From assembly GCA_022449845.1 (NCBI GenBank), contig JAKUOE010000007.1, positions 1-32,767 on the forward strand: DNA of 32,767 nt. The letters run 5' to 3'. Below are positions 6,594-29,553 of this stretch, piece by piece (the first letter of the stretch is position 1; each line of letters starts with the position of its first letter). The notes under the pieces were generated by a model, which saw only the letters and a list, made by a program, of their open reading frames with translations, was not told the DNA's origin and ran no database searches. The stretch is from Candidatus Thalassarchaeum sp. (GTDB lineage Archaea > Thermoplasmatota > Poseidoniia > Poseidoniales > Thalassarchaeaceae). Both the position numbers and the translations under genes were made by a program.

Positions 6594-9500
6594 TCAGAAT
6601 CGCATTTCGTCATCAATTGAAAGCATGCTCGACTGCGCATCGACGCGGGCAAGAGCTTCGCGACGGCGGGCGACCATGACCATTCCAGCAACGGCCATCA
6701 GTGCGATGGTGAGCAGTAGAATCATGGTCGGAACCGACCATTCTCCTGCGGCCTCCAATGCGACGTCGATCCAACCGTTCTCACTCGACAGTTCGCCGAG
6801 GTCCTTCCGGTTGTTCGCTTCATTCGCCTCAATGATGAGGTTGCCCGGATCAACAATCACAGACACGTCGTGGTTACCAGCCGTGACTGGGTACAACAGT
6901 GTAATCTCAACCGCTTCAGCAGAACCGCTGTCATCTGGTGGCATCAGCGCACCGATGACTTGTCGATAAGCGACATTCTCCTCTGAACAGATGTTGTTGC
7001 GGAGGTTGTCCTGAGTTTCATCCTCACAAAGTACGATATTGATGTCCGTCGCGTGAACGTTTCCGCGATTGATAATCTGGACGTTGATCGGAATCATATC
7101 CCCAACAGGAGCCTCGACGCGCACAGCTGAGACGTCGATGAGTTCGAGGTCAGGTGCGCGAAGACGGATTCGCAGAACTTGTTCATTCGTGTCACATGGG
7201 TAGACGTTGTCCACGACACCATCGTTATCCGCATCAATCGTACAACTGTCTAGCCATGATGCGGTTTCATCGGTATCACCATTGGGTGAACCGCCGTAAT
7301 TTGATAGGACCTTGATTCCAATCTCACGATTGGCCAGCATAGCTGCCGGACTGATGTCGATAATGACCATCACTTGCACGGTAGTGTACGCTGGCATCTC
7401 AGCCAAACTCCAGGTTCCATCGGCATGGAGAGCGCAGCCGTACAATGGTGCGGCCTGACCAACTCCGAGTTCTTCACAAGGAATCTCACGAGGCAGTTCT
7501 GTGTCGAAATCCTCAACCATAGCAAAGGAGACATCCCAACTCGTCAATGAACCCATGCTGGGCTGATCGTTCCAATCATTGCCACTCTTGGTGTGGTTGT
7601 GTAGCGTGGGAATATCTGGGACGTTACCATTGTTGGTCACATTCAGAAGATAACGGACTGTGCGACCGGGCGCAGTGGTCTTGATTTGACTCTCAACGGT
7701 TTCATCAAGCCAGATTTGCATGTCATGGAACTGATTCACCGTGATATCAAACAAAATCGCATCACGCTCATCAGTGCCGTCGAAATATTCCTCACTGTAT
7801 ACCTTGACAACGACCTGATAGGTGCCTGCTACAATTTGACCAGGGATGTTGAGAATCACATCAACAGTCTCCGCATTATCGCGCTCAAGCTCTGACAAGG
7901 TTGCACGGGGAATTTCGATGTCCCAGAGTAATTGTGAACCGTTGCTGTCGGTGATTGAGGCCGTACGCATATCGTAGCGATCTGGGCCGTTACCGTCGTT
8001 CGTGGTGGTCACGGGAATGACCAGTGCTTGCCCTGGGTCTACAGCGTGAGATGTCTCTTCGGCTGTCATGTCCAAATCATACACGTGAATCACATTGGTG
8101 GATAGAATCACTGAGTCTGAGACTCTAGATGCGCCCTGCAGGTGAGCCTTGACTGTGATTGCAGGACCCAACCCAGCAGTTGCGTTCAGTGGGGCACAGA
8201 CGATGACACCAACCTCTCGTGGTACATCGATAATGGACCAATGGCGTGGTTTACTCATCTCCCCTTCATTTCCACCCGGAGCATTTGAGAAATCGAGATC
8301 CACAGTCCAGTGGTCATACTGCCATTCATTCATCGGCATACCATCTGGCTTGAGTTCAGGTGCACCTGGCGTCGTGAAAATCAGGTAACCGGGTGCGAAC
8401 TTCTTGATGACATCGATTGTGTACGTGTGGCAATCACCAGGCATCACGTATTCCGATGTATCGAAAATCTCGAAGATGATGTTGCCTGTAGAACGGATAC
8501 TGACGTTGACCCACAATTCCAGAACGTCATACGTTCCTTTGTCGAGGCTCTTGACCGGTTCGCCCATCGACCATCCTTTCAGATACAACGCGAACGTACC
8601 CGGATCTTGGGTCGTCGGCACGGAAATCTCGAGGTTCTTGGTCACGGATTGTCCGGGGTCAAGGCTGACCATCAATGGGAAGTTGATTTGCCAACCCCAA
8701 GGCAATAGCCATTCTTGTTGACCCTGCAGCGTTGTGGGGTCATAGAAAGCAAAGGTGTCGAACACGTTGCCCGTATTGGTAATCGTAATCGAGAAAATCG
8801 CAGTCTCGCCTTGCTCGACATCCGATTGGTAATGGCTCGTCTCTAACTCAATGCCGTGGACCACGTCCATCAGAGTGAGTGTCAAACGGTCGCTTCGAAT
8901 CGCTGGATCCTTGTAAGATACTGCAGAGACGACGATTTGCGCCAATTCGTCCTCATTCGCCTGATAAATCGACGGGGCGCGCACACGCAGATAGACGCGG
9001 ACAGATTCCCCTCCCATCAAGAAAATGGGCGTTTCTGGGAAAATCGCAGTGTGATTGTCTGAGAAGAACAGATTGGCCGTCCAATTCACAGGCACACCGG
9101 ATAAATTCACAGCAAACGTGTCGGAGACCAAATCGATGGGGCCTGGTGTGGAGTTGTTCACAGTCAGATTGTAGATTGTCTGCTCACCCGGTTCGATGAC
9201 GTGGTAATACGTCTCATCCTCGGCCAATTCCACATCAACCTGTCCAGTCAAGACGTGGGTGTAACATAACGTGTAGGCGCCGTTATTCGAATTCTCGTTG
9301 CATTTGTTGGTATCAGACCACGCAATATGCGCACCACTTCCAAGGTCATTTGCAAACGCTGGTGGTTGCGAAAGATCGGGCGCACGGCCATTGTTTGGGC
9401 CGAGTTTGTCACTTTGCCATTCGGTGACGTCGACGCGCTCCCATGGATCTAGAACGGCAGCGGCAATGCTGTTTAGAGGCCAATCACCAACATCGTTGGT

Positions 9501-11603
9501 ATGGTTCAAGCGAGTGTACATGATGGACTCGCCCTGAGACGTGTTTGAGTTCTCAAGCCATGAAAGGTGGATGTTGTTCTGGTTGTCAGAGAGAATCTGC
9601 GGCATGTACGACGAGGCTCGCCAGGGATCATTCGGATTGACGTTGGCATATCCCTCAACATAGGAAATTCTGGTATCGACGATTTTCTTGATACCGTAAG
9701 TGGGCAGGCCACCTGAAACGCCGTCCCATTCTGCTGAACCGCGTAGGCGGAGGCGGGAATAGTAGACTTCGTAGTTGTCGTCTTTGTCAAAACCATAGTC
9801 GCGAGTGTCCATCCATGTAAGATGTGTATCTCCACTGTTGTCAATCGCGAGTGCTGGATGTAGACTGAATGCGTCATCTAGAGTAACACGGGTATCATTG
9901 ACCACAACAAGGTGACCGTAGCCATTCGAATCTTGACTTGGGCCGAGATCCTCGGTGTAGCGATTGTTGGATTCGTCGGTTCCAGATTGTCCGTAGACCC
10001 AACCAGGTGCTGGATTCTGAATCTTTGAGTATGGATCCAAGACAGTCATGTAGATTTCACGACTGTTGTTGGTTGCTAGGAAAACCATTGCCTCAACCAA
10101 TGTAGCCATGTTGTTGGCTGAAGATGCGGGGAAAGCATACACTTGTCCTCCAGCATCAGTATTTCGGGTTGTGGAACCTGGACAAATTCGCGGGTTCATA
10201 TTCACCTGCCCGTTTGGACATTGTGCGAGATCTTTCATGTGACTTGCAACTTGGTTGTTTGCGCCCCAAGATGAACCATAAATTCCCACAGGGATTACTC
10301 CTGCATCAACGCAAGCGTCGTGAGCTTCGTTGATACTGGCAATGTCATCAGATTGTTGGGGTGGGTCTCCACCCTTGGGTCCCTCGTCACTGATTGGAAT
10401 GATAATCTTGGTTGCATTTGGATTCCATTTGTGGTCGTGTGTGGTCGGTGGGTTTCCGGGGACGTTGCCCTGTGCATCTACCCAAGACAAACATGACCAA
10501 GCACTACCTGGTCCCCAATCTTCACCTTGGTAACCGCCACTTTGTGCACCACCATTGTAGATGGTTGAGTGTAGTTTGACGAGGCCGCCCGAGTCATCTC
10601 CTAGCGTAAGGTGATTGGATCTTGGGTTCTCGTGGTGAGGTGGACTAGAACATGCGCCGCTTGTTGCAGCACTTGGGAAAAATCCACCCAATGCATACAA
10701 TGTTTCGAATACCGAGATGTTCGCCTCTTCAAGCATAGGCTTGATTCCGGGGAATGTGCCGCCGTTGGACCATGAGCCGCCGTAGAAAACAACACACATG
10801 TCGGCCCATTCTGAATACATGGAACCTGATGTATCGATTGCTGAAACAATCTCCACCTTTCCACCACGGGTATCATCCCATGCAATCTGCACGAAATCAT
10901 CTGCATCGATTGCGATGTCAGGGTGGCCTTTGTGCCCAATGATGGGCGTCAATAGCGTGCTGTCAATCGCTGTGATTGCTTCACGGGATGCCTCATCGAT
11001 CTCTAGGAATTTGTAGTAAATTTGTGGTTGTTGGAAATACTTGTCGTGTCGATCGTACGAGTCTTCCCACACGATGTGGACATTGTCCTGACTGTCAACT
11101 GCGAGTGCGGGCCAATCTCGGTTCTGTTGTCGGCGTACAACTTCTGTATCATCGATAATTGAGATTGTGCTGTCATCAGCAGATGTGCCATCCTGATCGT
11201 CCAAGCTAGGGTCGAGTAGCGTGTACAGGATTTCGTGTTGGCTGGCCTTGTTGGCCCATGTGACGTGGACGCGGTCCTCTGAATCGATGTCGATATCGGG
11301 GTGCCAAGCACGATGGCCGCCGCCGTTCGAAATTTGGGTGACGTCGATGACGGTTTGAGCACGAGGATCTAGCATCGTGTAGTAGAGATGCTGTGTGTTT
11401 CGTGACCAGATGACGTGGATGTTGCCTTCGCTATCACTTGTCATCGATGCCATTCGTTCGTTGACTGCGCCACCATCGACAAGTTGCACTGCGTCAGTAA
11501 TGACCACAGATGCACCTTGAGCAGTTGGTGGTGTGTATGCAACCAATGTTGTGCTCATCAAGAAAATCATCACCATTGTGATGCTACCATATTTGTTGTT
11601 CAT
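6594..11603 (-). CDS. Giant secreted surface protein: propeller-like repeats, vWA, CARDB/NEW3-type domains, C-terminal TM anchor
   Basis: This 1669-aa protein starts with a signal peptide (residues 1-30, ending near PTAQGA). At least seven repeats of the pattern D-x2-N/D-x-H/V-x-W, such as GNIHVIW, NVHIVW and NIHLSW, suggest sialidase- or BNR-like propeller blades. Between two of them, at about residues 250-500, lies a von Willebrand A-like domain with the MIDAS motif DTSGSM (D257) and IIIPISDEGP near 395. Residues about 800-1440 hold several NEW3/CARDB-type domains with motifs such as TNTGN and TNNGN. A DADNDGVVDN calcium-type loop lies near 1455, and a final CARDB domain spans about 1480-1605. 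A membrane helix near 1620-1642 is followed by a basic stop and a short cytoplasmic tail. It should be anchored outside the cell. Adhesion, sensing or scaffolding are possible; no enzyme motif is visible. Confidence 0.88.
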   Translation of the reverse strand: MNNKYGSITMVMIFLMSTTLVAYTPPTAQGASVVITDAVQLVDGGAVNERMASMTSDSEGNIHVIWSRNTQHLYYTMLDPRAQTVIDVTQISNGGGHRAWHPDIDIDSEDRVHVTWANKASQHEILYTLLDPSLDDQDGTSADDSTISIIDDTEVVRRQQNRDWPALAVDSQDNVHIVWEDSYDRHDKYFQQPQIYYKFLEIDEASREAITAIDSTLLTPIIGHKGHPDIAIDADDFVQIAWDDTRGGKVEIVSAIDTSGSMYSEWADMCVVFYGGSWSNGGTFPGIKPMLEEANISVFETLYALGGFFPSAATSGACSSPPHHENPRSNHLTLGDDSGGLVKLHSTIYNGGAQSGGYQGEDWGPGSAWSCLSWVDAQGNVPGNPPTTHDHKWNPNATKIIIPISDEGPKGGDPPQQSDDIASINEAHDACVDAGVIPVGIYGSSWGANNQVASHMKDLAQCPNGQVNMNPRICPGSTTRNTDAGGQVYAFPASSANNMATLVEAMVFLATNNSREIYMTVLDPYSKIQNPAPGWVYGQSGTDESNNRYTEDLGPSQDSNGYGHLVVVNDTRVTLDDAFSLHPALAIDNSGDTHLTWMDTRDYGFDKDDNYEVYYSRLRLRGSAEWDGVSGGLPTYGIKKIVDTRISYVEGYANVNPNDPWRASSYMPQILSDNQNNIHLSWLENSNTSQGESIMYTRLNHTNDVGDWPLNSIAAAVLDPWERVDVTEWQSDKLGPNNGRAPDLSQPPAFANDLGSGAHIAWSDTNKCNENSNNGAYTLCYTHVLTGQVDVELAEDETYYHVIEPGEQTIYNLTVNNSTPGPIDLVSDTFAVNLSGVPVNWTANLFFSDNHTAIFPETPIFLMGGESVRVYLRVRAPSIYQANEDELAQIVVSAVSYKDPAIRSDRLTLTLMDVVHGIELETSHYQSDVEQGETAIFSITITNTGNVFDTFAFYDPTTLQGQQEWLLPWGWQINFPLMVSLDPGQSVTKNLEISVPTTQDPGTFALYLKGWSMGEPVKSLDKGTYDVLELWVNVSIRSTGNIIFEIFDTSEYVMPGDCHTYTIDVIKKFAPGYLIFTTPGAPELKPDGMPMNEWQYDHWTVDLDFSNAPGGNEGEMSKPRHWSIIDVPREVGVIVCAPLNATAGLGPAITVKAHLQGASRVSDSVILSTNVIHVYDLDMTAEETSHAVDPGQALVIPVTTTNDGNGPDRYDMRTASITDSNGSQLLWDIEIPRATLSELERDNAETVDVILNIPGQIVAGTYQVVVKVYSEEYFDGTDERDAILFDITVNQFHDMQIWLDETVESQIKTTAPGRTVRYLLNVTNNGNVPDIPTLHNHTKSGNDWNDQPSMGSLTSWDVSFAMVEDFDTELPREIPCEELGVGQAAPLYGCALHADGTWSLAEMPAYTTVQVMVIIDISPAAMLANREIGIKVLSNYGGSPNGDTDETASWLDSCTIDADNDGVVDNVYPCDTNEQVLRIRLRAPDLELIDVSAVRVEAPVGDMIPINVQIINRGNVHATDINIVLCEDETQDNLRNNICSEENVAYRQVIGALMPPDDSGSAEAVEITLLYPVTAGNHDVSVIVDPGNLIIEANEANNRKDLGELSSENGWIDVALEAAGEWSVPTMILLLTIALMAVAGMVMVARRREALARVDAQSSMLSIDDEMRF

Positions 11604-11712: not shown

Positions 11713-12333
11713 TCAAGCCCATTCAGAGGGGTCAAAGCCAGTTCCGAAACCACCAGTTTCGTCGGTCTCAACCTCGCGTGTCGAATGGGTGGCTTCAGGC
11801 TCGGGTTGGTTGCCGCCCTTGGCCCAATCATCTACAGGGCCAGGCTTCCCAATTCCAGGACCATAGGAGAATTTGATTTCATGGATGACTGACAACTTGG
11901 ATAACCACAATCGTCGGAGTGTTTGCATCACTTCATTCTGCGTGACCCCATCGAACCATGTAGGCATTGAGAGATTGAATGCTTGCAAGGGACCTGGTTT
12001 TTCCTCTCCGTGCCCTACATGTAACACCCAATCAACATGTGATCGAGTGAGGCGGAGGCGTGTTTCATGAAGCCATTCTTCCCAACCATGGGCGTCGTCA
12101 TTCGCATGTTTGGCCATCTCATCTTGTTGTCCAGCATCGACTTGTGTGACACTGGAAATGACCAACAAATTGCGACCCTTTGGAGATAAGACATTGAACA
12201 GATGTCCATGCTTGGTTGGAGGGTATCTGACTAGAAAATGAAAGTCAGCCCGTGGGTCTTCGCGATCCCTGATTTCAAGTCCTTCACCGGACAACCATTT
12301 CCGCACATTTCCCTCGATATCCCGGGTCGCCAT
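11713..12333 (-). CDS. Conserved hypothetical protein, possibly DUF2299-like
   Basis: This is a 206-aa soluble protein. The N-terminal 130 residues (WLSGEGLEIRDRE, a beta-hairpin with FHFLVRYPP, then NVLSPKGRNLLVISS) recall small archaeal proteins of the DUF2299 type, but I hold that link only weakly. The C-terminal 50 residues are rich in Gly, Pro and acidic residues and look disordered. No catalytic motif, membrane helix or signal peptide is seen. It follows the acyltransferase gene by 21 bases on the same strand, so it may be its operon partner. The GC-rich stretch GCGCAAGCGCGCGC just after its stop can form a hairpin but has no T-run. Function unknown. Confidence 0.7.
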   Translation of the reverse strand: MATRDIEGNVRKWLSGEGLEIRDREDPRADFHFLVRYPPTKHGHLFNVLSPKGRNLLVISSVTQVDAGQQDEMAKHANDDAHGWEEWLHETRLRLTRSHVDWVLHVGHGEEKPGPLQAFNLSMPTWFDGVTQNEVMQTLRRLWLSKLSVIHEIKFSYGPGIGKPGPVDDWAKGGNQPEPEATHSTREVETDETGGFGTGFDPSEWA

Positions 12334-12354: not shown

Positions 12355-13896
12355 CTATTTCAGCGCAGCGAGCAAATCGTGGATGTCCTTGAGAATCGGT
12401 ACATTGGTTGAGTTGCGGCCAAATCGATTGATGCAGCGCGCATCTCTAGAGATGATGTGTAAATCCCATGCTAGAAGGGCAATCTTGTTTGAAAGGTGGA
12501 AGGCGAATGGGAGCAATACGGTGATGAGGACAATGTGTAATGCGCTGATTGTCAAAGGTCCAAAGAATGCGTAGAGCGCGAATATCGCCATGGGGATGGG
12601 CCAAATAATCATCGGACCCAGCATCGCCGCGAGGAAATGGTAGGTGGTTCTTGCATCCAATCCTTCATCCGTATTGTCCCCTAGAATTTTCGCAATTAGA
12701 ATCATCACGCCGCTTCCATACAATGTCAATGGCGCGGCGAGTAGGGCGAGAACAATCGCAGGAAGCACAGCGAGGTGTTCCTTCATCGAAGGTGTGCGCA
12801 AACCATCGGAATCCAGTGCTCGACCATCCAGCCCTACAGAATGGAGGGCTTTGCCGACTCGATTTGCAGGTTCTTGCAATGAAATGAGATTGTTGGGTTC
12901 TAATCGAATCTCCTCCCGAATCGTGCGGGCCGCCAAGACTTCTTCGCGCCATGAATTCAATCTCTTCCCTTTGGCAATCGAGCGAAGGTGGCCAAGGACG
13001 TGCCAGGTCCGATGCTCATCCCAAGTGGATGCGTCGGGAGTCAGGGGGGTTAGATCTTCACGAACTTGGTCTCGTAGTGTGTTAACTGTGTCAGCTGGGG
13101 CTTCGACCCATTCACCTTCGAGAAGCCGCTTTCGATCTTCGACAGAATGAACCGCATCCTCAAGCGAAATCGGGTTGCCGTATTCGAACCATGCATCTGT
13201 TCTGAAGTACCATGAAACTCGGTAATGCAATCCCACTGGAAGGAGGTGAGGAGGGGGTGCGCCACGCTCTCGGGCGATGGAATTTGCAGCAATGACAGAG
13301 CGCATTGGACCGGTTCGAAGGCGGCGCATCATGGAATCTTCATGGGATGTTCCTTCTGGGAACAGGGCACTCCCATGTCCATTGGCAATACATTCTGCAA
13401 GCGTCAACATGGTCTTCGAATTGATTCTAGAGGCGGCTTCTGCCGATGCGCCACCGCGCGCGCGTTCGGCTTGCCGGATTATGGGTTGAGATCCAGAAAT
13501 GGATGCGATGTGTCCAATCAATGGGCGTGTGAGTAAATCGTGGCGGCCCCCGAACACCAACTTCTTCGGTTGTGTGACAAGAATGGTGGCTGAGTCAATC
13601 AATGCGTTTGTATGCCAAGCAACGGTGAGTACGCCCGCCTCTTCTGAGATATTTTCTTGGCCGGTGATTTCGATGGTTCTGAACTGCTGCCGAAGAGCCA
13701 ATCGACACATACCTCTGATGAGATTGTAAAACCACAGAACACCGGGGTGTTCACCTGGTTTGGAAGCATGTCTACGTCGTTTCTCAATCTTGTCGACATC
13801 AATCTGTGATGCGCTTTTGGAAAGTGGAGGAAGGATGTCGCCATGATGATCGACAGCACCATCATCGCCAGATTGAACTGTCTGCTTCGCCATCAT
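12355..13896 (-). CDS. PlsC-type 1-acyl-glycerol-phosphate acyltransferase with C-terminal membrane domain
   Basis: This 513-aa protein has the LPLAT/PlsC acyltransferase signature. HTNALID near residue 94 is the HX4D catalytic motif, and FPEGTS near residue 178 is the acyl-acceptor phosphate-binding block. Such enzymes move a fatty acyl chain onto a glycerol phosphate or a related acceptor and are normal in bacteria and eukaryotes. The domain covers about residues 70-270. A helical linker follows, then several membrane helices at about 385-470. Two adjacent ATG codons exist (13896 and 13893). A GGTGAT Shine-Dalgarno immediately upstream abuts the first and sits 3 bases from the second, so 13893 may be the real start. 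It lies 18 bases after the HIT gene. Its presence in an archaeon is notable. Confidence 0.88.
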   Translation of the reverse strand: MMAKQTVQSGDDGAVDHHGDILPPLSKSASQIDVDKIEKRRRHASKPGEHPGVLWFYNLIRGMCRLALRQQFRTIEITGQENISEEAGVLTVAWHTNALIDSATILVTQPKKLVFGGRHDLLTRPLIGHIASISGSQPIIRQAERARGGASAEAASRINSKTMLTLAECIANGHGSALFPEGTSHEDSMMRRLRTGPMRSVIAANSIARERGAPPPHLLPVGLHYRVSWYFRTDAWFEYGNPISLEDAVHSVEDRKRLLEGEWVEAPADTVNTLRDQVREDLTPLTPDASTWDEHRTWHVLGHLRSIAKGKRLNSWREEVLAARTIREEIRLEPNNLISLQEPANRVGKALHSVGLDGRALDSDGLRTPSMKEHLAVLPAIVLALLAAPLTLYGSGVMILIAKILGDNTDEGLDARTTYHFLAAMLGPMIIWPIPMAIFALYAFFGPLTISALHIVLITVLLPFAFHLSNKIALLAWDLHIISRDARCINRFGRNSTNVPILKDIHDLLAALK

Positions 13897-13914: not shown

Positions 13915-14349
13915 TCAATGAGATTGTAATCGCTCGGACAATTCTGCTAACGCCGCAAAATCAGGGTCTCCACCTGGAGGCGGGGAGTCGGGCCAGCAAG
14001 CGAGTAGAGTGAGGCCTCCATCTCCAAACGTCCGCGGGCACACGTGAATGTGCACATGGGGGACTTCTTGGCCAGCGGTTGGTCCATCGTGGACCCCGAC
14101 GGAGAAATCTTGTGTGCCAAACTCTGCTGTGAGGCGTCTCTGCACTTCAACCACGCCCGCCATCAGTCCTTGCAGGCTTTCTGAAGAGAGATCGGCAAGT
14201 CGCTGGGCTTGTTCTTTGGGAACGACCAATGTGTGTCCTGCTCGACGCGGATAGATGTCCAAGAAGGCGTACCAATGATCACCTTCTGCAACCTTGGATG
14301 AGGGGATTTCACCTTGGATGATTTTTGTGAACAAAGTCGGTTCGTCCAT
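13915..14349 (-). CDS. HIT family hydrolase
   Basis: This 144-aa protein is the usual size for a histidine triad protein, a nucleotide hydrolase or transferase acting on phosphoramidate, dinucleoside polyphosphate or AMP-conjugate substrates. The N-terminus (FTKIIQGEIPSSKV, then FLDIYPRRAGHTLVVPK) matches the Hint/Fhit core. The triad is VPHVHIHVCPR, with H98, H100 and H102. H98 and H100 help bind phosphate and H102 is at the nucleophile position by family analogy. The ATG at 14349 has GAGG five bases upstream. It lies immediately before the acyltransferase gene, probably in one transcript. The precise substrate is not predictable. Confidence 0.93.
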   Translation of the reverse strand: MDEPTLFTKIIQGEIPSSKVAEGDHWYAFLDIYPRRAGHTLVVPKEQAQRLADLSSESLQGLMAGVVEVQRRLTAEFGTQDFSVGVHDGPTAGQEVPHVHIHVCPRTFGDGGLTLLACWPDSPPPGGDPDFAALAELSERLQSH

Positions 14350-16045: not shown

Positions 16046-17638
16046 TTAACTGCGAAGAGTCAGTTTCGTCACAGAGCCATCATTGCCTGCGAGAGAGTGT
16101 TTGGCCTGCTTCGCATCTGTCTCAGGATGATCGGTGCGAACGTGCGTGCCCCGACTCTCTTCACGTGCCAATGCAGCAGAGACGGCTGCTGCGGCGACTG
16201 AAAGTAAACCCTGTGTTTGAAGCATAGAGACCATCTCCGTATTCATCACCGGACTCGTGTCGGTGATGCTGACTTTCATTTCCTGAAGTTCTTGAATCGT
16301 AGATGCGGCGTTCGATAGGCCTGATGCGTCACGCTCTGAACCCATGTGTGTGCGCATGGTGCTAGCCAATTTTGACTGAATGGCACCTGAACTGGCGCCA
16401 TCTGAACCAGCCTCAGTCAATATGGAATCGTGGAGATGGTGGGCATCGGTCAAGGCAACAGAAATTGCACTCGATGCTGTGTGCTTAGATGACGATGCAT
16501 GTCCTGCTGCTGAAGTTCCCGAGATCATCCCACTGCTCAATGCGCCGAGAAGGTGGTCGCCACTGTTGACTGCGGCTCCATGTAGACCTGAACAGGCTGC
16601 ATCACCTGCTGCGAAAAGTCCGGGTAGAGGGGTGTCCCAAGACCCATTGATTACGTTCCCTGATACATCAACGGGAATCCCGCCAATGGTTGATCCTGCA
16701 ATCGGCAGAAGGGGAATCAATTGCTCAGTGCAATCGATTCCACAACGAGAAGACAAGGTTGCGGCAACCCCTGCAAACCATGGTGAATCCGAACGTGGAA
16801 TGCCAGTCAGATCCAACGATGCACCACCTGCAGAGAGAATGGCTAGAGCAAGTGCATCGGGTCCGTCGTCCATGGGTAGAGGTTGGCCTTCTAGGTCACT
16901 GATTGTGCCACCGGATCCAAGAACATCAAGAGGAAGGCAAAGTGTTGTCTCAGCAACCGTCAGTGGATGCATGGACGTGAATTCAAGATTGGCCAGAGCG
17001 ATACCGGAACGTAGTGCTAGATGAGCCGATGTGCCCATTGCGATTCCATCACCGTTCCAAGCACTCTGGAATCCGGAACCTGCAAGCAGAATTGATTTGG
17101 CTTGAATTCCAAATACCTCTCCAGATTGGATATCGAGTGCAATCAGGCCGCATGCTCGACCTGTATCGATTACAAGGTCAAGAATTTCAATATCGCCGCG
17201 ACGAGGGATATTGCGCTTGATGCATTGTTCTTCAAGAATGGAGCGAACTTCGCGCAGTGTTGAGTCGCCGGTGCTCGCAGTCCGGGGGTTTGATTGTCCG
17301 GGCAATTGTCCTAGGTGGGGTGATCCGTTGCGATCGCGGCGAAGATTCAAGCCCCATCGCTCCAGTTCAGCAAGAAGTTCCACAGCTGTATTGGTTGATG
17401 CGGCAACGACATCGCTCTCGCACAAATCGGCGCCGACACGTTTTGTGTCTGCGGCATGAGTCGATGAATCGGTTTCTCCAGACGATGCAGCCAATCCGCA
17501 ACTCATTGCGTCGGCTGAGGAAGATGAGGGGGATGTTGGGCTCAATACGGTCACCGTTGCACCTTCATCAGATGCGGCAATGGCAGCACGGAGTCCGGCA
17601 ACACTGCCTCCGACGATGACGACATCCCAAGCCTGCAT
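16046..17638 (-). CDS. SdhA/FrdA/NadB-like flavoprotein lacking the catalytic residues
   Basis: This 530-aa protein has the fold of the fumarate reductase/succinate dehydrogenase flavoprotein family. The FAD-binding motif is VVIVGGSVAGLRAAIAA (residues 6-22), LPGLFAAGDAACSGLHGA lies at 338-355, and the C-terminal helical domain ends in AREESRGTHVRTDHPETD. H224 in MHPLT matches the substrate-binding His of HPTG. The catalytic arginine position is D261, the HYxMGGI histidine is G315, and the GANRLGGNSL arginine is V357. No covalent-FAD histidine motif or iron-sulfur partner gene is nearby. It probably binds FAD but should not interconvert succinate and fumarate or oxidise aspartate by the standard mechanism. 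Start chosen because GGTGAT lies 3 bases upstream. Actual substrate unknown. Confidence 0.87.
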   Translation of the reverse strand: MQAWDVVIVGGSVAGLRAAIAASDEGATVTVLSPTSPSSSSADAMSCGLAASSGETDSSTHAADTKRVGADLCESDVVAASTNTAVELLAELERWGLNLRRDRNGSPHLGQLPGQSNPRTASTGDSTLREVRSILEEQCIKRNIPRRGDIEILDLVIDTGRACGLIALDIQSGEVFGIQAKSILLAGSGFQSAWNGDGIAMGTSAHLALRSGIALANLEFTSMHPLTVAETTLCLPLDVLGSGGTISDLEGQPLPMDDGPDALALAILSAGGASLDLTGIPRSDSPWFAGVAATLSSRCGIDCTEQLIPLLPIAGSTIGGIPVDVSGNVINGSWDTPLPGLFAAGDAACSGLHGAAVNSGDHLLGALSSGMISGTSAAGHASSSKHTASSAISVALTDAHHLHDSILTEAGSDGASSGAIQSKLASTMRTHMGSERDASGLSNAASTIQELQEMKVSITDTSPVMNTEMVSMLQTQGLLSVAAAAVSAALAREESRGTHVRTDHPETDAKQAKHSLAGNDGSVTKLTLRS

Positions 17639-19393: not shown

Positions 19394-20530
19394 TCAACTC
19401 ATGGCTAGGCCGTGGCGTCGGCCTGCATCAGACACTTGATGCAGGAAATGTTCAATCTGGATTCGAGGATGAATCGTACGTCGTAGAGATGTGTCACAAT
19501 TCGCCAAGGCATCGAGCACTTCATTTCGTAAGGAAGGAGGTAGCATGAGGCGGTTTCCGACGATCTCAGTATGGATCTGATGGATTACATCTTCAGCATC
19601 GAGCGCATGGACCCCCATCATCTCATCCAATTGACCCATGGCACCCTCAAGGGTCTTCACGTTGCGACGGCCCTGTTTCTCCCAGCGCCACTCAATCACT
19701 CGGCCCCGCAAGGCGAGTTCAATCATCCTTCGAGCGTGCTGGAGGGTGCTCTCTGATACTACATCGTAGAGGCGGTTTCTCTCACCTGTCATCTCACGTC
19801 GGGCCAATAGTTCGGTTGTGAACAATGCCTTGCGTAGGTTGCCACCCGATACATGTGCAATGTCTTCTGCTAGACCGGTGGCGAGTGTGATATTCTCAAG
19901 AAATGCAACCTTGCCAACAGTTGCGACAATTTCCTCGGATTCAATCGCAGGTATTCGGATGTGCTGCATCCGGCTTCTCAGCGCATCGATGATTCGGCTG
20001 GGGGCCCTCGCTGTGAAGATGAAGCGTGTTGTATGAGACTCCGATTCCATCATTCGACGGAGGTAGGGTTGGCGCCGCGAGCCGAGATGGTCGGCATCTT
20101 CAATGACAATCAGACGGCTGACCGGTGCGCGTCCAAATTCCATCGGTGACTCCTCTCCGCATGGGGCCTCACCGACATCTCCAGACCACATATTGCGATC
20201 AAAGGCATCGAGGCTGGTTCGACTTGCGAGCGTATCCGATGACTGAGCGCCTTCAGGTCGTAGAAAATTCTCAAATTTCTTCATTGCACCGGCTTGCCGA
20301 GAAAGGTCGCGGGCCTGGAGAACGTGGCAGGTTGCTTTCCAACCCGGACCCAGGACCTGTCGGGCGACCAAACGCCAAGCAGCGGTCTTGCCTACACCAG
20401 CAGGGCCTGTAATCAGCAAATGGGGAGGATTGCCGGAAGAACTGGCTCGGATGAATTGTTCACGAACAGGCCCGGGCACGGCCAACGCATCAAACCGCTT
20501 GGGTGCGTGAGTGGAAAGCCAGGAGGCCAT
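19394..20530 (-). CDS. Divergent replication factor C (clamp loader) small-subunit-like ATPase
   Basis: This 378-aa AAA+ protein resembles archaeal RFC small subunits, which load the PCNA clamp onto primed DNA. Walker A is GPAGVGKT (residues 42-49), Walker B is IVIEDAD (141-147), and an RFC-like sensor/arginine-finger region RFIFTARAPSRIIDALRSRM lies at 169-188. The C-terminal helical collar includes SGGNLRKAL. Compared with typical RfcS, the usual WxEKYRP start is altered to WLSTHAPKRF. The DEAD box reads EDAD, the sensor-1 asparagine is missing (TAR) and SRC is SRM. About 50 extra residues sit between Walker A and B. It is therefore likely a paralogue, such as a second small subunit. The ATG at 20530 is preferred over a TTG one codon earlier. 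rpo12 lies 40 bases upstream. Confidence 0.88.
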   Translation of the reverse strand: MASWLSTHAPKRFDALAVPGPVREQFIRASSSGNPPHLLITGPAGVGKTAAWRLVARQVLGPGWKATCHVLQARDLSRQAGAMKKFENFLRPEGAQSSDTLASRTSLDAFDRNMWSGDVGEAPCGEESPMEFGRAPVSRLIVIEDADHLGSRRQPYLRRMMESESHTTRFIFTARAPSRIIDALRSRMQHIRIPAIESEEIVATVGKVAFLENITLATGLAEDIAHVSGGNLRKALFTTELLARREMTGERNRLYDVVSESTLQHARRMIELALRGRVIEWRWEKQGRRNVKTLEGAMGQLDEMMGVHALDAEDVIHQIHTEIVGNRLMLPPSLRNEVLDALANCDTSLRRTIHPRIQIEHFLHQVSDAGRRHGLAMS

Positions 20531-20570
20531 CAACGATTGCGGGGGTGTCGCAGTCTTTCAACAAAACGTT

Positions 20571-21419: not shown

Positions 21420-22448
21420 TCAGAGGTCCGCGAGTTCGCTGAGGTAGAGAATTCGCATGCTGTGCTCAAAGGCTGCAGCATGGCCCCAGGCCTCCAGCAA
21501 ATCAGCGCCCAGAGCGTACACTCCATGTCCGCGAGCGACGAACAATTTGTTCCCCGTCTGTTTGAGCGCCTCTGTAATCTCAACCAGATAGCCTTCCATG
21601 TCATCGTACTGAACATCGACAATCGTCGCACGACCGAAATTCGAACGGCCTTCGAAATCTGTGGGGACCAAAGCGTATCGATCCTTCTCGAGACTCAGAG
21701 TTGTGGTGTACGGTGCAGCGACATGAACACATGCGCCACGACCCTCGTGCTCAAGGCTGGCAATCGACAAGGCCACACTGTGAATCTGCCAATCCTCGTT
21801 TGCGCTGTTTGGCGCGGCATCTCCGAGGCGGCCAGTGATTAGATCCTTCTCATTCATCAGACCCAATGCAGCACCTTGGCGTGTCGTGTGAATCAGACCG
21901 GGTGAAGTGGTCGAGAGGAGGCTGAATGAACCCGATGTTCCATGAAGAAGGCGCTCTTTGTGCAACTGGCGACCCAATGTTGCAAACATGGAAACGACCT
22001 CTCCGGGGACCACGTAACCATCACCGACAATGGGGGGCATGGGTGGGTTTTCAACCTCTTGAATCACTTCACCTGCCGCGGCCATTCCTTGCTTGAGGGT
22101 TGCATTCTCTTCCCGCAATTGTTCCAATTCCACCTTCTCATCGCCATCAACCGTACGCTTGACTGTCTCGATTTTTTCCTGTCCGGCTTCAATCACGATT
22201 GAGGAGCCGCTGTGCATTGTCTGAGCACCGGTGGGGGCTGATGGTGCGGAAGAAGGCGGGCCGGTTGGAGGTGTCGAACCGCCACCGAACATCGCACGCC
22301 CTCCGGAACCTTTGCCGGGCGGGCCACTTGGTGGTCCGCTGGGTGGACCTGAGGGGGGTCCTGATGGAGGGCCTGATGGGGGTGCGCCAGTCACCTTTTC
22401 GAGCATCTCATCTGAGCCGTCATCTTCGTCAACAACCTCATCGCTCAC
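21420..22448 (-). CDS. Class II aldolase/adducin-like protein with PPSG-repeat and coiled-coil N-terminus
   Basis: The C-terminal 200 residues resemble the class II aldolase/adducin fold: HGTSGSFSLLS, CVHVAAPYTTTLS and RGHGVYALGADLLEAW. Comparing with E. coli FucA, the zinc-ligand region HNH becomes HVA, so the second histidine (H94) is alanine, and the catalytic E73 position in NEDWQ is aspartate. The histidines equivalent to H92 and H155 remain. The N-terminal half has an acidic start, a run of about five PPSG repeats, a Gly/Pro-rich linker and a heptad coiled coil (EKVELEQLREENATL). The GTG at 22448 was chosen because a longer frame would run through tRNA-Asp. Start uncertain; a TTG lies nearby at 22460. 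Substrate unknown; a non-enzymatic adducin-like role is possible. Confidence 0.82.
   Translation of the reverse strand: MSDEVVDEDDGSDEMLEKVTGAPPSGPPSGPPSGPPSGPPSGPPGKGSGGRAMFGGGSTPPTGPPSSAPSAPTGAQTMHSGSSIVIEAGQEKIETVKRTVDGDEKVELEQLREENATLKQGMAAAGEVIQEVENPPMPPIVGDGYVVPGEVVSMFATLGRQLHKERLLHGTSGSFSLLSTTSPGLIHTTRQGAALGLMNEKDLITGRLGDAAPNSANEDWQIHSVALSIASLEHEGRGACVHVAAPYTTTLSLEKDRYALVPTDFEGRSNFGRATIVDVQYDDMEGYLVEITEALKQTGNKLFVARGHGVYALGADLLEAWGHAAAFEHSMRILYLSELADL
22317..22382 (-). repeat. In-frame 12-base tandem repeat encoding PPSG units
   Basis: About five and a half imperfect 12-bp units of the type CCACCATCAGGC encode consecutive Pro-Pro-Ser-Gly. It is low-complexity and the unit number may vary between strains. 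It lies inside the aldolase-like gene, between the acidic start and the coiled coil. Confidence 0.85.
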
Positions 22449-22479
22449 GGTCGCACCCAAACGGCGGAACAAGTACCGA

Positions 22480-22487
22480 TTAAATAC
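22480..22487 (+). promoter_or_regulatory. TATA box of tRNA-Asp, possibly shared with the divergent gene
   Basis: TTAAATA at 22480-22486 lies 27-33 bases before tRNA-Asp, the expected archaeal TATA spacing. Read on the minus strand it is TATTTAA, about 32 bases before the GTG of the aldolase-like gene. One element could thus serve both directions. Confidence 0.55.
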
Positions 22488-22512
22488 AGGTCCGATGTCG
22501 CTTGTCCGCCCA

Positions 22513-22588
22513 GCCCCTGTAGTGTAGTGGCCTATCATGGAGCCCTGTCGAGGCTCCGACCCGGGTTCAAATCCCGGCGGGGGCGCCA
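22513..22588 (+). tRNA. tRNA-Asp (GTC anticodon), CCA encoded
   Basis: Acceptor GCCCCTG (22513-22519) pairs with CGGGGGC (22578-22584). Anticodon stem GAGCC/GGCTC encloses CTGTCGA, giving anticodon GTC and G37. The T-arm is CCGGG-TTCAAAT-CCCGG. The discriminator G at 22585 is followed by an encoded CCA. It reads GAC/GAT. No intron. It sits between trm5 and the aldolase-like gene, on the opposite strand. Confidence 0.96.
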
Positions 22589-22599
22589 ACAAGTGCCTA

Positions 22600-23646
22600 T
22601 TATGTGGCCTTACGAGCATCCAATCGGCAAAGATCTGCAGAGGCCGAATAGGAGCGTCGGCGTTCAAGTTCAGCTTCTGGCCCGAGAATGTCACGGACAC
22701 GGACTTGAGCATCTTGGAATTCTGAGTGCTCTATGATGGCCCATCCACGAACCAACCCTCCTGGCCGAATCAATGGGAGTAGTTCGGGTAGGTGTTCCAA
22801 CGTGTCGTGAGGAATGTTCACTAGGAGGATGTCGAATTTCTCGCACATTTCTGGACGTTCTTTGAGTAATCGGGCATCCGCACATTCGATGGTTGCCGAA
22901 GGGTGTTGGATATTCTCTCGAAGGAACTCCGCGGCAGATGGATTCAGGTCACCTGCAAACAATTCCTCAATCAAATCAGGTTCGGATATCAAAGGTAGGA
23001 GCGAGGGTCCGACACCTGCGTATGGGGCACAGATGATCAAGGGGCGACCCAATTCTTCACGGAGATTCAGGGCGGTGGCGAGAGTACCTTCTCGTTCGTG
23101 AGAAAGTCTGGACGAGTAGTATACCGTTGTGGGATCCGTCCACAGATAATTCTCATTCTCAAGAATACGGGTGCGTGTCGTCGATTCATGACCATCGCGA
23201 ACGGCCAATAGATTGAGGTCGCGCACGCGAAAGTCTCCGATGACTCCACCATCTTCGAATACCGCTCGTGTGCGCGAGTGTTGGCGAAGGAGTGCTTCGC
23301 CAATGGCATCTCCATGTGGCCTTTGTTCATCATTCAGTTTAATGAGAATCAAGTCACCGATGAACTCATGGCGGCGCGGCCATTCAACCGATTCGACAAT
23401 GTCTGTGGGAAGAATATCGACAAGATGGTCGCGGTATGTCCGGGGTGTTTGGGTATCCACTTCAATGTCTACAATCGGGTAGTGTGCAGCAACCGAGGGT
23501 GTAGGATTGTCAATGAATGGGATTAGGCGGCGTTCAGAATCAGATGGATCTGTTTGCACCCGCGCACCCTCGGGCAGAGCGGATTCAGCCCGGAGTTGCT
23601 GGAGAATACGGTCCGTATCTGGGCTCGGCACGCTCAAATGAAGCAT
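22600..23646 (-). CDS. trm5: tRNA (guanine-37-N1)-methyltransferase, Trm5-like
   Basis: This 348-aa SAM-dependent enzyme makes m1G37 next to the anticodon, which prevents +1 frameshifting. It has the features of archaeal Trm5. HEFIGDLILIKL is the D2 start. The FEDGGVIGDFRVRDL and ENENYLWTDPTTVYYSSRLSHER-type region, split here as ENENYLW and VYYSSRLSHER, precedes the Rossmann domain. SAM motif I is CAPYAGVGPS (near 205-215), then GDLNPSAAEFLRENI and the catalytic-motif equivalent NIPHDT. The usual NLP is NIP. The ATG at 23646 has GAGTGAT upstream in the mRNA. It ends 11 bases from the opposite-strand tRNA-Asp, which carries a G37. It is divergent from dphB by 54 bases. Confidence 0.9.
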   Translation of the reverse strand: MLHLSVPSPDTDRILQQLRAESALPEGARVQTDPSDSERRLIPFIDNPTPSVAAHYPIVDIEVDTQTPRTYRDHLVDILPTDIVESVEWPRRHEFIGDLILIKLNDEQRPHGDAIGEALLRQHSRTRAVFEDGGVIGDFRVRDLNLLAVRDGHESTTRTRILENENYLWTDPTTVYYSSRLSHEREGTLATALNLREELGRPLIICAPYAGVGPSLLPLISEPDLIEELFAGDLNPSAAEFLRENIQHPSATIECADARLLKERPEMCEKFDILLVNIPHDTLEHLPELLPLIRPGGLVRGWAIIEHSEFQDAQVRVRDILGPEAELERRRSYSASADLCRLDARKAT

Positions 23647-28152: not shown

Positions 28153-29553
28153 ATGGGGGCAATGGCCATGAAATCAACGCCCCAACGCTTGAAGACCGTA
28201 TGGCTCAGCCTACGGCTGGGTGTGAGAATGGATTGGGAATCGCCGATTGATTCTGGACCCGTTCCTGAAGATGGTTCCACGTTCGATGTAATCGTCGTGG
28301 GAGGTGGGCCTGGTGGAAGCGGTGCGGCCGGGTACATGGCGATGAAGGGACACAAAGTTCTGCTATTGGAGAAAGCTGTTTGGCCTCGTGACAAGACCTG
28401 CGGGGATGCTGTTGGTGGGAAATCGCTCAAGCATGTGGAAGAGTTGGGTGTGAAACTGACGCTGGAAAAAACACCTCATTTCAGGGTTGATTCAATCATC
28501 TTCGGTGGCCCAAATGGGAAAGAGGTGCGGATTGCCCTCCCTGAAGATGAGGTTGAAAATCGAGAGGCTGGATACAGCCTGCCCCGCCGGCAATTCGATA
28601 CGTTGCTATTTCAAAATGCCAATGAAAAAGTGTTGGAATCCGGCGGCTCAGTAATCCAGAATTTTTCAGTCAAGGAAGTCCACATCGAAGATGGTGTTGT
28701 GAAGGGAATCTCCGGAGTTGTTGGTGGTGAAAGCCTGCATTACAGTGCACCGCTCACGATTGGAGCTGGAGGTTACAACTGTCCTGTATCTCGGGCTGTT
28801 ACGGCCCACCATGAAGAGCCAATGGTTGACAAAGCACACTACTGCGGTGCATTTCGAGAGTATTGGACAGGTGTAGAAGGATGTGGTGATTGGTCGGGTG
28901 CGATTGAAATTCATTTCATTGAAGGGGTTCTTCCTGGATATTTCTGGATCTTCCCCGTTGGCGATGGAGTGGTCAATGTGGGCATCGGCATGGTCATGAC
29001 AGAAATGGACAAACAGTCGGTGAAACTTCGTGGGTTACAAGATTGGGTCATCAATGAATCTCCAAAATTCAAGAAACGATTTGCGAACGCGAAAAAGGTG
29101 GAAAAATCGGGCAAAGGTAGCATGTTGCCATTCGGTAGTCCGCGGAAAAAACCACCATCATTCCAGCCCCGACGGGTCGCGATGGCTGGGGCGATGTGCA
29201 TCGGTGATGCGGCTTCGTTGGTCGATCCGTTCACCGGGGAAGGCATTGGGAATGCATTGCTTTCTGCTAAGTTGGCCTCGACCATTTTTGATCTAGAAAA
29301 ACACAAGGAAGGATTTACTTCAGAATCCGCGGAAGAATATCAAGTTAAGTTGTGGGATGAACTCTCTGCGGAATTAACAAACTCATACAAACTACAGCGT
29401 TTAGTCAAGAAAAAGCGGCTGATGAATTTCTTCATTGGGAGGGCTGTGAAGAAAGTCGAGTTGCAACGCGCCCTGACTGACATGATTGCTTCCAAGGAAG
29501 CGCAAGGCCAATTCCACTCGAAATGGTGGATGTTCAAGACCCTATTTTTCTGA
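28153..29553 (+). CDS. Geranylgeranyl reductase family FAD protein
   Basis: This 466-aa flavoprotein belongs to the family that saturates geranylgeranyl chains of archaeal ether lipids (digeranylgeranylglycerophospholipid reductase) or of related isoprenoids. The FAD motif is VIVVGGGPGGSGAAGY (about residues 47-62). KTCGD lies near residue 79, the family motif PGYFWIFP at 261-268 contacts the isoprenoid, and GDAASLVDPFTGEGIGNAL near 353 binds FAD. The C-terminal 90 residues are basic and helical. Three starts are possible: 28153, 28162 and 28228. The first two add a basic amphipathic N-terminus absent from most homologues, while 28228 would leave room for a promoter. The HAD gene follows by 9 bases. 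Confidence 0.9.
   Translation: MGAMAMKSTPQRLKTVWLSLRLGVRMDWESPIDSGPVPEDGSTFDVIVVGGGPGGSGAAGYMAMKGHKVLLLEKAVWPRDKTCGDAVGGKSLKHVEELGVKLTLEKTPHFRVDSIIFGGPNGKEVRIALPEDEVENREAGYSLPRRQFDTLLFQNANEKVLESGGSVIQNFSVKEVHIEDGVVKGISGVVGGESLHYSAPLTIGAGGYNCPVSRAVTAHHEEPMVDKAHYCGAFREYWTGVEGCGDWSGAIEIHFIEGVLPGYFWIFPVGDGVVNVGIGMVMTEMDKQSVKLRGLQDWVINESPKFKKRFANAKKVEKSGKGSMLPFGSPRKKPPSFQPRRVAMAGAMCIGDAASLVDPFTGEGIGNALLSAKLASTIFDLEKHKEGFTSESAEEYQVKLWDELSAELTNSYKLQRLVKKKRLMNFFIGRAVKKVELQRALTDMIASKEAQGQFHSKWWMFKTLFF

Follow-up and report, generated by a model that had tools for sequence, protein, structure and literature searches.

Few archaea of the surface ocean are as abundant as those of the uncultured Marine Group II (MGII). 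Homologues of PlsC, the lysophosphatidate sn-2 acyltransferase, have been reported in MGII by Villanueva et al. (2017), as cited in PMC6962369, and PlsC and PlsY are listed together for Marine Groups II/III, DPANN, and Asgard archaea (PMC6431249). An earlier note on the locus described here also mentioned that PlsC-like genes of marine euryarchaea were already on record. The absence of G1PDH, the presence of G3PDH and PlsC homologues, and the idea of mixed membranes have also been published (PMC6461757; PMC6962369; PMC6431249; PMC7852524).

Related enzymes are known from fungi and bacteria. Among the acyltransferases compared in PMC4207751, the HX5D motif is confined to fungal GPATs. The fGPAT-B signature in Table 1 of that study consists of HxNxphi-phi-D, FPEG[T/G/I]S[H/Y], and phi-phi-P[V/C/T], with 36-40 residues between motifs I and II, 21-104 between II and III, and 29-35 between III and IV (PMC4207751). 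Sct1 and Gpt2 of yeast are GPATs that carry HX5D and cross the membrane several times (PMC7613133). In marine roseobacters, the HX5D enzyme SalA is required for a sulfur-containing aminolipid; for PlsC, the same paper states that the phosphate of the acceptor is believed to be held by an Arg (Arg159 of the solved enzyme) (PMC8319176).

Motifs and fold of the window acyltransferase

The window, meaning the whole analysed stretch of 32,767 nucleotides, is a contig (G000:C201) of a 1.65-Mb MAG of Candidatus Thalassarchaeum sp. that is 81% complete. The host is archaeal, as the window carries topoisomerase VI A and B, archaeal GMP synthase subunit A, and diphthine synthase. Its gene content, its lack of G1PDH, and its relatives point to Poseidoniales, the order that corresponds to MGII. 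The acyltransferase ORF (Table 1) is intact, and its product is assigned to the PF01553 acyltransferase superfamily (LPLAT) by a Pfam match of 41.1 bits (cut-off, 23; E-value, 1.9e-10). The assignment is beyond chance, since the score is well above the cut-off, H95, D101, P180, E181, and G182 are invariant in a 42-sequence alignment, and homologues of the long classes C or B defined below occur in 259 of the 293 genomes of the class, including 34 of the 38 high-quality ones.

Table 1 Features of the window discussed in the text
Feature	Position	Strand	Remark
DUF2299 protein, conserved downstream neighbour	11713..12333	-	
Class C long acyltransferase	12355..13896	-	513 aa, HX5D type, C-terminal membrane helices
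Three hydrophobic segments, residues 375-393, 421-439, 448-466; predicted membrane anchor	12499..12774	-	
Motif IV, LLPVG, residues 218-222	13231..13245	-	
Motif III, FPEGTSH, residues 179-185	13342..13362	-	Without the Arg of PlsC FPEGTR
Motif II, QPIIR, residues 137-141	13474..13488	-	P138 and R141 invariant
Motif I, HTNALID, residues 95-101	13594..13614	-	HX5D catalytic motif
HIT-family protein, conserved upstream neighbour	13915..14349	-	
FAD_binding_2/Succ_DH_flav_C flavoprotein, in the conserved block	16046..17638	-	
Replication factor C-like subunit	19394..20533	-	Archaeal anchor of the conserved block
Geranylgeranyl reductase family flavoprotein	28153..29553	+	TIGR02032

The earlier note had described a bacterial-type PlsC with intact HX4D and FPEGTS motifs, and this interpretation as a whole is partly supported. 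The ORF, the FPEGTS residues (within motif III), and a geranylgeranyl reductase (GGR)-family gene in the same window are present. A bacterial-derived, glycerolipid-type acyltransferase is likewise upheld, and the tree presented below puts it within a bacterial family. Motif I, in contrast, reads H95-TNALI-D101 and is HX5D rather than HX4D, a form also found in all 37 class C and all 20 class B homologues examined. The motifs likewise speak against the PlsC subfamily, as does the NCBIfam model for AGP acyltransferases, TIGR00530, for which the window protein scores 33.4 bits, under the cut-off of 102.95; a class A protein, at 66 bits, misses this cut-off too.

Compared with the published motif table, the window protein agrees with fGPAT-B in motifs I, III, and IV and in the II-III and III-IV spacings (34 and 31 residues). 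In motif II, P-phi-x-R of the fungal phi-P-phi-x-R is present but the leading Q is not hydrophobic, and the I-II spacing of 35 residues is one short. HxNxphi-phi-D occurs in 34 and FPEG[T/G/I]S[H/Y] in 30 of the 37 class C proteins. By this comparison, which uses the motif table alone, class C matches most of the Sct1/Gpt2-type GPAT signature. It also shares with these PF01553 enzymes several membrane helices, and differs in the leading residue of motif II and in its archaeal host.

With PlsC, such as that of Thermotoga maritima (5kym), the window protein has the PF01553 fold, the His/Asp catalytic pair, and the FPEG motif in common. PlsC, however, carries HX4D and FPEGTR with a phosphate-binding Arg, is about 250 aa long, and lacks the long C-terminal membrane part. 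Arg159 of the solved enzyme is taken to be the Arg of FPEGTR, a place at which the window protein reads FPEGTSH. SalA, set beside the window protein by its published description, resembles it in HX5D, LPLAT family, and marine source. SalA is HX5D yet serves aminolipid synthesis, so the acceptor cannot be read from HX5D alone.

An AlphaFold2 model built from the alignment reached a pLDDT of 90.9 and a pTM of 0.88. The best E-values of a Foldseek search against the PDB were those of human GPAT1 (8e4y, 8.3e-7) and PlsC (5kym, 2.3e-5), followed by algal and squash GPATs. The fold match backs the superfamily and not the substrate, since the TM-scores, at 0.26-0.33 by query length, are low and GPAT is not separated from PlsC. 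A profile search against the PDB returned PlsC 5kym weakly (E-value, 0.0035), and phmmer with the single window protein gave no useful match there.

Acyltransferase classes, bacterial relatives, and gene order

PF01553 proteins were detected by family search in all 59 relatives and fall into three classes in Poseidoniales. Class A proteins are short (about 260 aa), of PlsC type, with HX4D and FPEGTRS; classes B (about 540 aa) and C are long HX5D proteins with C-terminal membrane helices, and the window gene belongs to class C. Class A was seen only in relatives and was not found in the source MAG, at its 81% completeness. Homologues of C or B are present in about 258 of 272 genomes of the two Poseidoniales families and in one of about 21 genomes of the third family of the class, which has two or three short acyltransferases in their place. 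Outside the class, matches were obtained in 13 genomes of the phylum sample. In other Thermoplasmatota (G303, G345, G321, and G379), PF01553 domains lie in open frames of 842-957 aa, which are possibly fusions.

One bacterial relative of the window protein was recovered by tblastn against plasmids, in Gemmatirosa, with 25.7% identity. This sequence served as the lead for a bacterial set made up of its 80 best matches; the set is a biased sample, because it was chosen by matching to a single bacterial sequence. These best 80 homologues come mostly from Gemmatimonadota, Myxococcota, Acidobacteriota, and Planctomycetota, and all 80 contain HxNxphi-phi-D. Like class C, they have FPEGxSH and are long (mostly 410-560 aa), and they are the nearest relatives of B and C in the tree; identity to class C is about 20-26% where compared. 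In a 61-row tree rooted on class A, classes B and C make up a single clade (100/98; UFBoot, 100) within the bacterial rows, comprising a class C clade (100/100) and a class B clade (100/99), with class C well apart from class A. A 141-row tree agrees. A single transfer from bacteria, with a duplication before Poseidoniales radiated, would explain this most simply. The stem branch of class C is long (1.41), which is compatible with a changed function.

The gene order replication factor C (RFC), membrane protein, flavoprotein, HIT, class C, DUF2299, and a 1669-aa protein is kept in 29 loci across Poseidoniales, including a one-contig genome (G002), within the stretch compared per locus. The last of these genes (6594-11603 in the window) encodes a putative secreted protein and is found just past DUF2299 throughout the order. 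A contig joining archaeal and bacterial DNA, named in the earlier note as a possible refutation, could be suspected because the relatives of the gene outside the order are bacterial. Such a chimera is ruled out by the order-wide synteny and is hardly conceivable in view of the even GC across the gene and the breadth of its homologues in the class. Elsewhere in the window, a called ORF (21420-22712) overlaps a tRNA-Asp gene on the opposite strand (22513-22588), and its true start probably lies further in.

Lipid pathway genes of the window and its relatives

The protein of the GGR-family gene scores 168 bits with TIGR02032 (cut-off, 158.8) and 112.5 bits with the DGGGPL-reductase equivalog, under the cut-off of 580. 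The gene had been regarded as a hallmark of ether lipids; its presence holds, but alone it is no proof of such lipids. Stronger evidence comes from GGGPS and CarS, which occur in 44 and 57 of the 59 relatives. G1PDH, PlsY (PF02660), and PlsX (PF02504), which the earlier note had suggested looking for, each exceeded the cut-off of the family search in none of the 59 relatives, and GpsA was found in 54. In one locus (L062; G047:C16), the GpsA domain lies in a 1136-aa open frame with a score far above all others, which may represent a fusion or a contaminant contig.

A bacterial-type CdsA, a strong PF01148 protein distinct from CarS, is restricted to the window's genus: 16 of its 17 genomes have it, against none of the other 42. 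It carries S-x-[LI]-KR-x4-KD-x-S-x2-LPGHGG-[IL]-LDR-[VI]-D in the six loci checked, which we take to be the CDP-DAG synthase signature. Its best NCBIfam match is phosphatidate cytidylyltransferase, under the cut-off. CarS reportedly prefers archaeal and CdsA bacterial substrates (PMC9385802). Some of the loci with this CdsA-like protein (L064, L086, and L092-L095) show, by eye, a Trm5-type methyltransferase-like gene beside it.

The source genome also contains a predicted multidomain fatty-acid or polyketide synthase cluster (L090:3074-12614; G000:C179), in which a PPTase, a 2038-aa AT-KS-ACP-KR-DH protein, a stand-alone ketoacyl synthase, and a FabI-like reductase are adjacent. Some genera with class C have no strong ketoacyl synthase, so acyl chains there would come from elsewhere. 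Class B is missing from the genera in which a strong ketoacyl synthase is missing too (g3, g4, g7, and g10), and most genera with such a synthase possess class B, g16 being an exception. A functional link between class B and the ketoacyl synthase is possible, and the pattern is blurred by incomplete genomes.

Candidate role in the first acylation and alternative readings

Judging from sequence, we hold with middling confidence that the window protein performs the first acylation of glycerol phosphate. The gene would encode a membrane-bound, Sct1/Gpt2-like HX5D acyltransferase that the ancestor of Poseidoniales gained from bacteria. We infer its catalysis, acyl acceptor, acylation position, and step order as follows. 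GpsA would supply glycerol 3-phosphate as the acceptor, the His95-Asp101 pair would activate its hydroxyl, and acyl-ACP or acyl-CoA would donate a fatty acyl chain to it, giving lysophosphatidic acid. The enzyme would thereby stand in for the missing PlsX/PlsY step, class A would add the second chain, and in the window's genus the bacterial-type CdsA could activate the resulting phosphatidic acid. A first-step role fits because PlsX and PlsY are missing while GpsA and PF01553 proteins are present in nearly all and all relatives, respectively. The HX5D motif of classes B and C as opposed to HX4D in class A, the agreement with the fGPAT-B signature, the fold search led by human GPAT1, the CdsA of the genus, and the FAS cluster of the source genome also speak for it. 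Lipidomics of MGII-rich waters revealed no abundant unusual lipids (PMC6962369), which counts against a first acylation, as do the SalA precedent, the leading Q of motif II and the short I-II spacing, the low TM-scores, the long stem of class C, the failure to find class A in the source MAG, and the genera that have class C but no strong ketoacyl synthase.

It is rather unlikely that class C instead adds the second chain to a mono-isoprenoid ether (GGGP-like, on G3P), producing hybrid lipids with an isoprenoid ether and a fatty ester. GGGPS, CarS, and GpsA without a G1PDH among the relatives would suit this pathway, hybrids have been proposed for MGII (PMC6962369), and PlsC of bacteria can use either stereo-form of glycerol phosphate (PMC13400652). 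However, the second step falls naturally to class A, with its HX4D and FPEGTRS motifs, class C is devoid of the acceptor-phosphate Arg of PlsC, and fully acyl lipids need a first-step enzyme, for which no other candidate was found. An acceptor other than glycerol phosphate, such as a lyso-aminolipid, a glycolipid, or another lipid alcohol, as with SalA, also appears improbable. The closeness of motifs I, III, and IV to fungal GPATs argues against it, and the near-universal presence in the order together with the missing PlsX/PlsY fits a core step; on the other side stand the HX5D motif of SalA, which makes a sulfur-containing aminolipid (PMC8319176), the strong divergence of class C from its bacterial relatives, and the conserved neighbours HIT, DUF2299, and RFC, which are not lipid genes. 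That the protein is an ordinary PlsC is very unlikely: the superfamily match, the structural similarity to 5kym, and the earlier annotation of MGII proteins as PlsC (PMC6431249; PMC6962369) speak for it, but HX5D, the missing FPEGTR Arg, the length of 513 aa with C-terminal membrane helices, the low TIGR00530 score, and the tree position well apart from class A disfavour it.

The MGII/MGIII homologues reported previously belong to the same superfamily and the same group of organisms. Those reports (PMC6431249; Villanueva et al., 2017, via PMC6962369) name PlsC (and PlsY) only; in the present analysis three classes were separated and PlsY was not detected in the 59 relatives. The literature covered, which leaves out many subscription papers, yielded no account of either HX5D acyltransferases or CdsA for Poseidoniales. 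New here are the correction to HX5D, the division into three classes, the bacterial source family, the order-wide synteny, and the genus-restricted CdsA.

When earlier work named PlsC, genomes lacking PlsX and PlsY still had no enzyme assigned to the first acylation. It is the resemblance to a first-step, yeast-type enzyme, rather than to the second-step PlsC, that makes the old question of membrane composition easier to test; with a specific candidate, a second-step partner, and a CdsA confined to one genus, the mixed-membrane question could be reduced to a few heterologous assays. For the window's genus it may tentatively be proposed, more as a possibility than as an expectation, that fatty acids from the FAS, first acylation by the HX5D enzyme, second acylation by class A, and activation by CdsA yield complete bacterial-type phospholipids alongside isoprenoid lipids on the same G3P backbone. 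If true, an archaeon would naturally have a mixed, possibly single-handed membrane, with a yeast-type enzyme in place of PlsX/PlsY.
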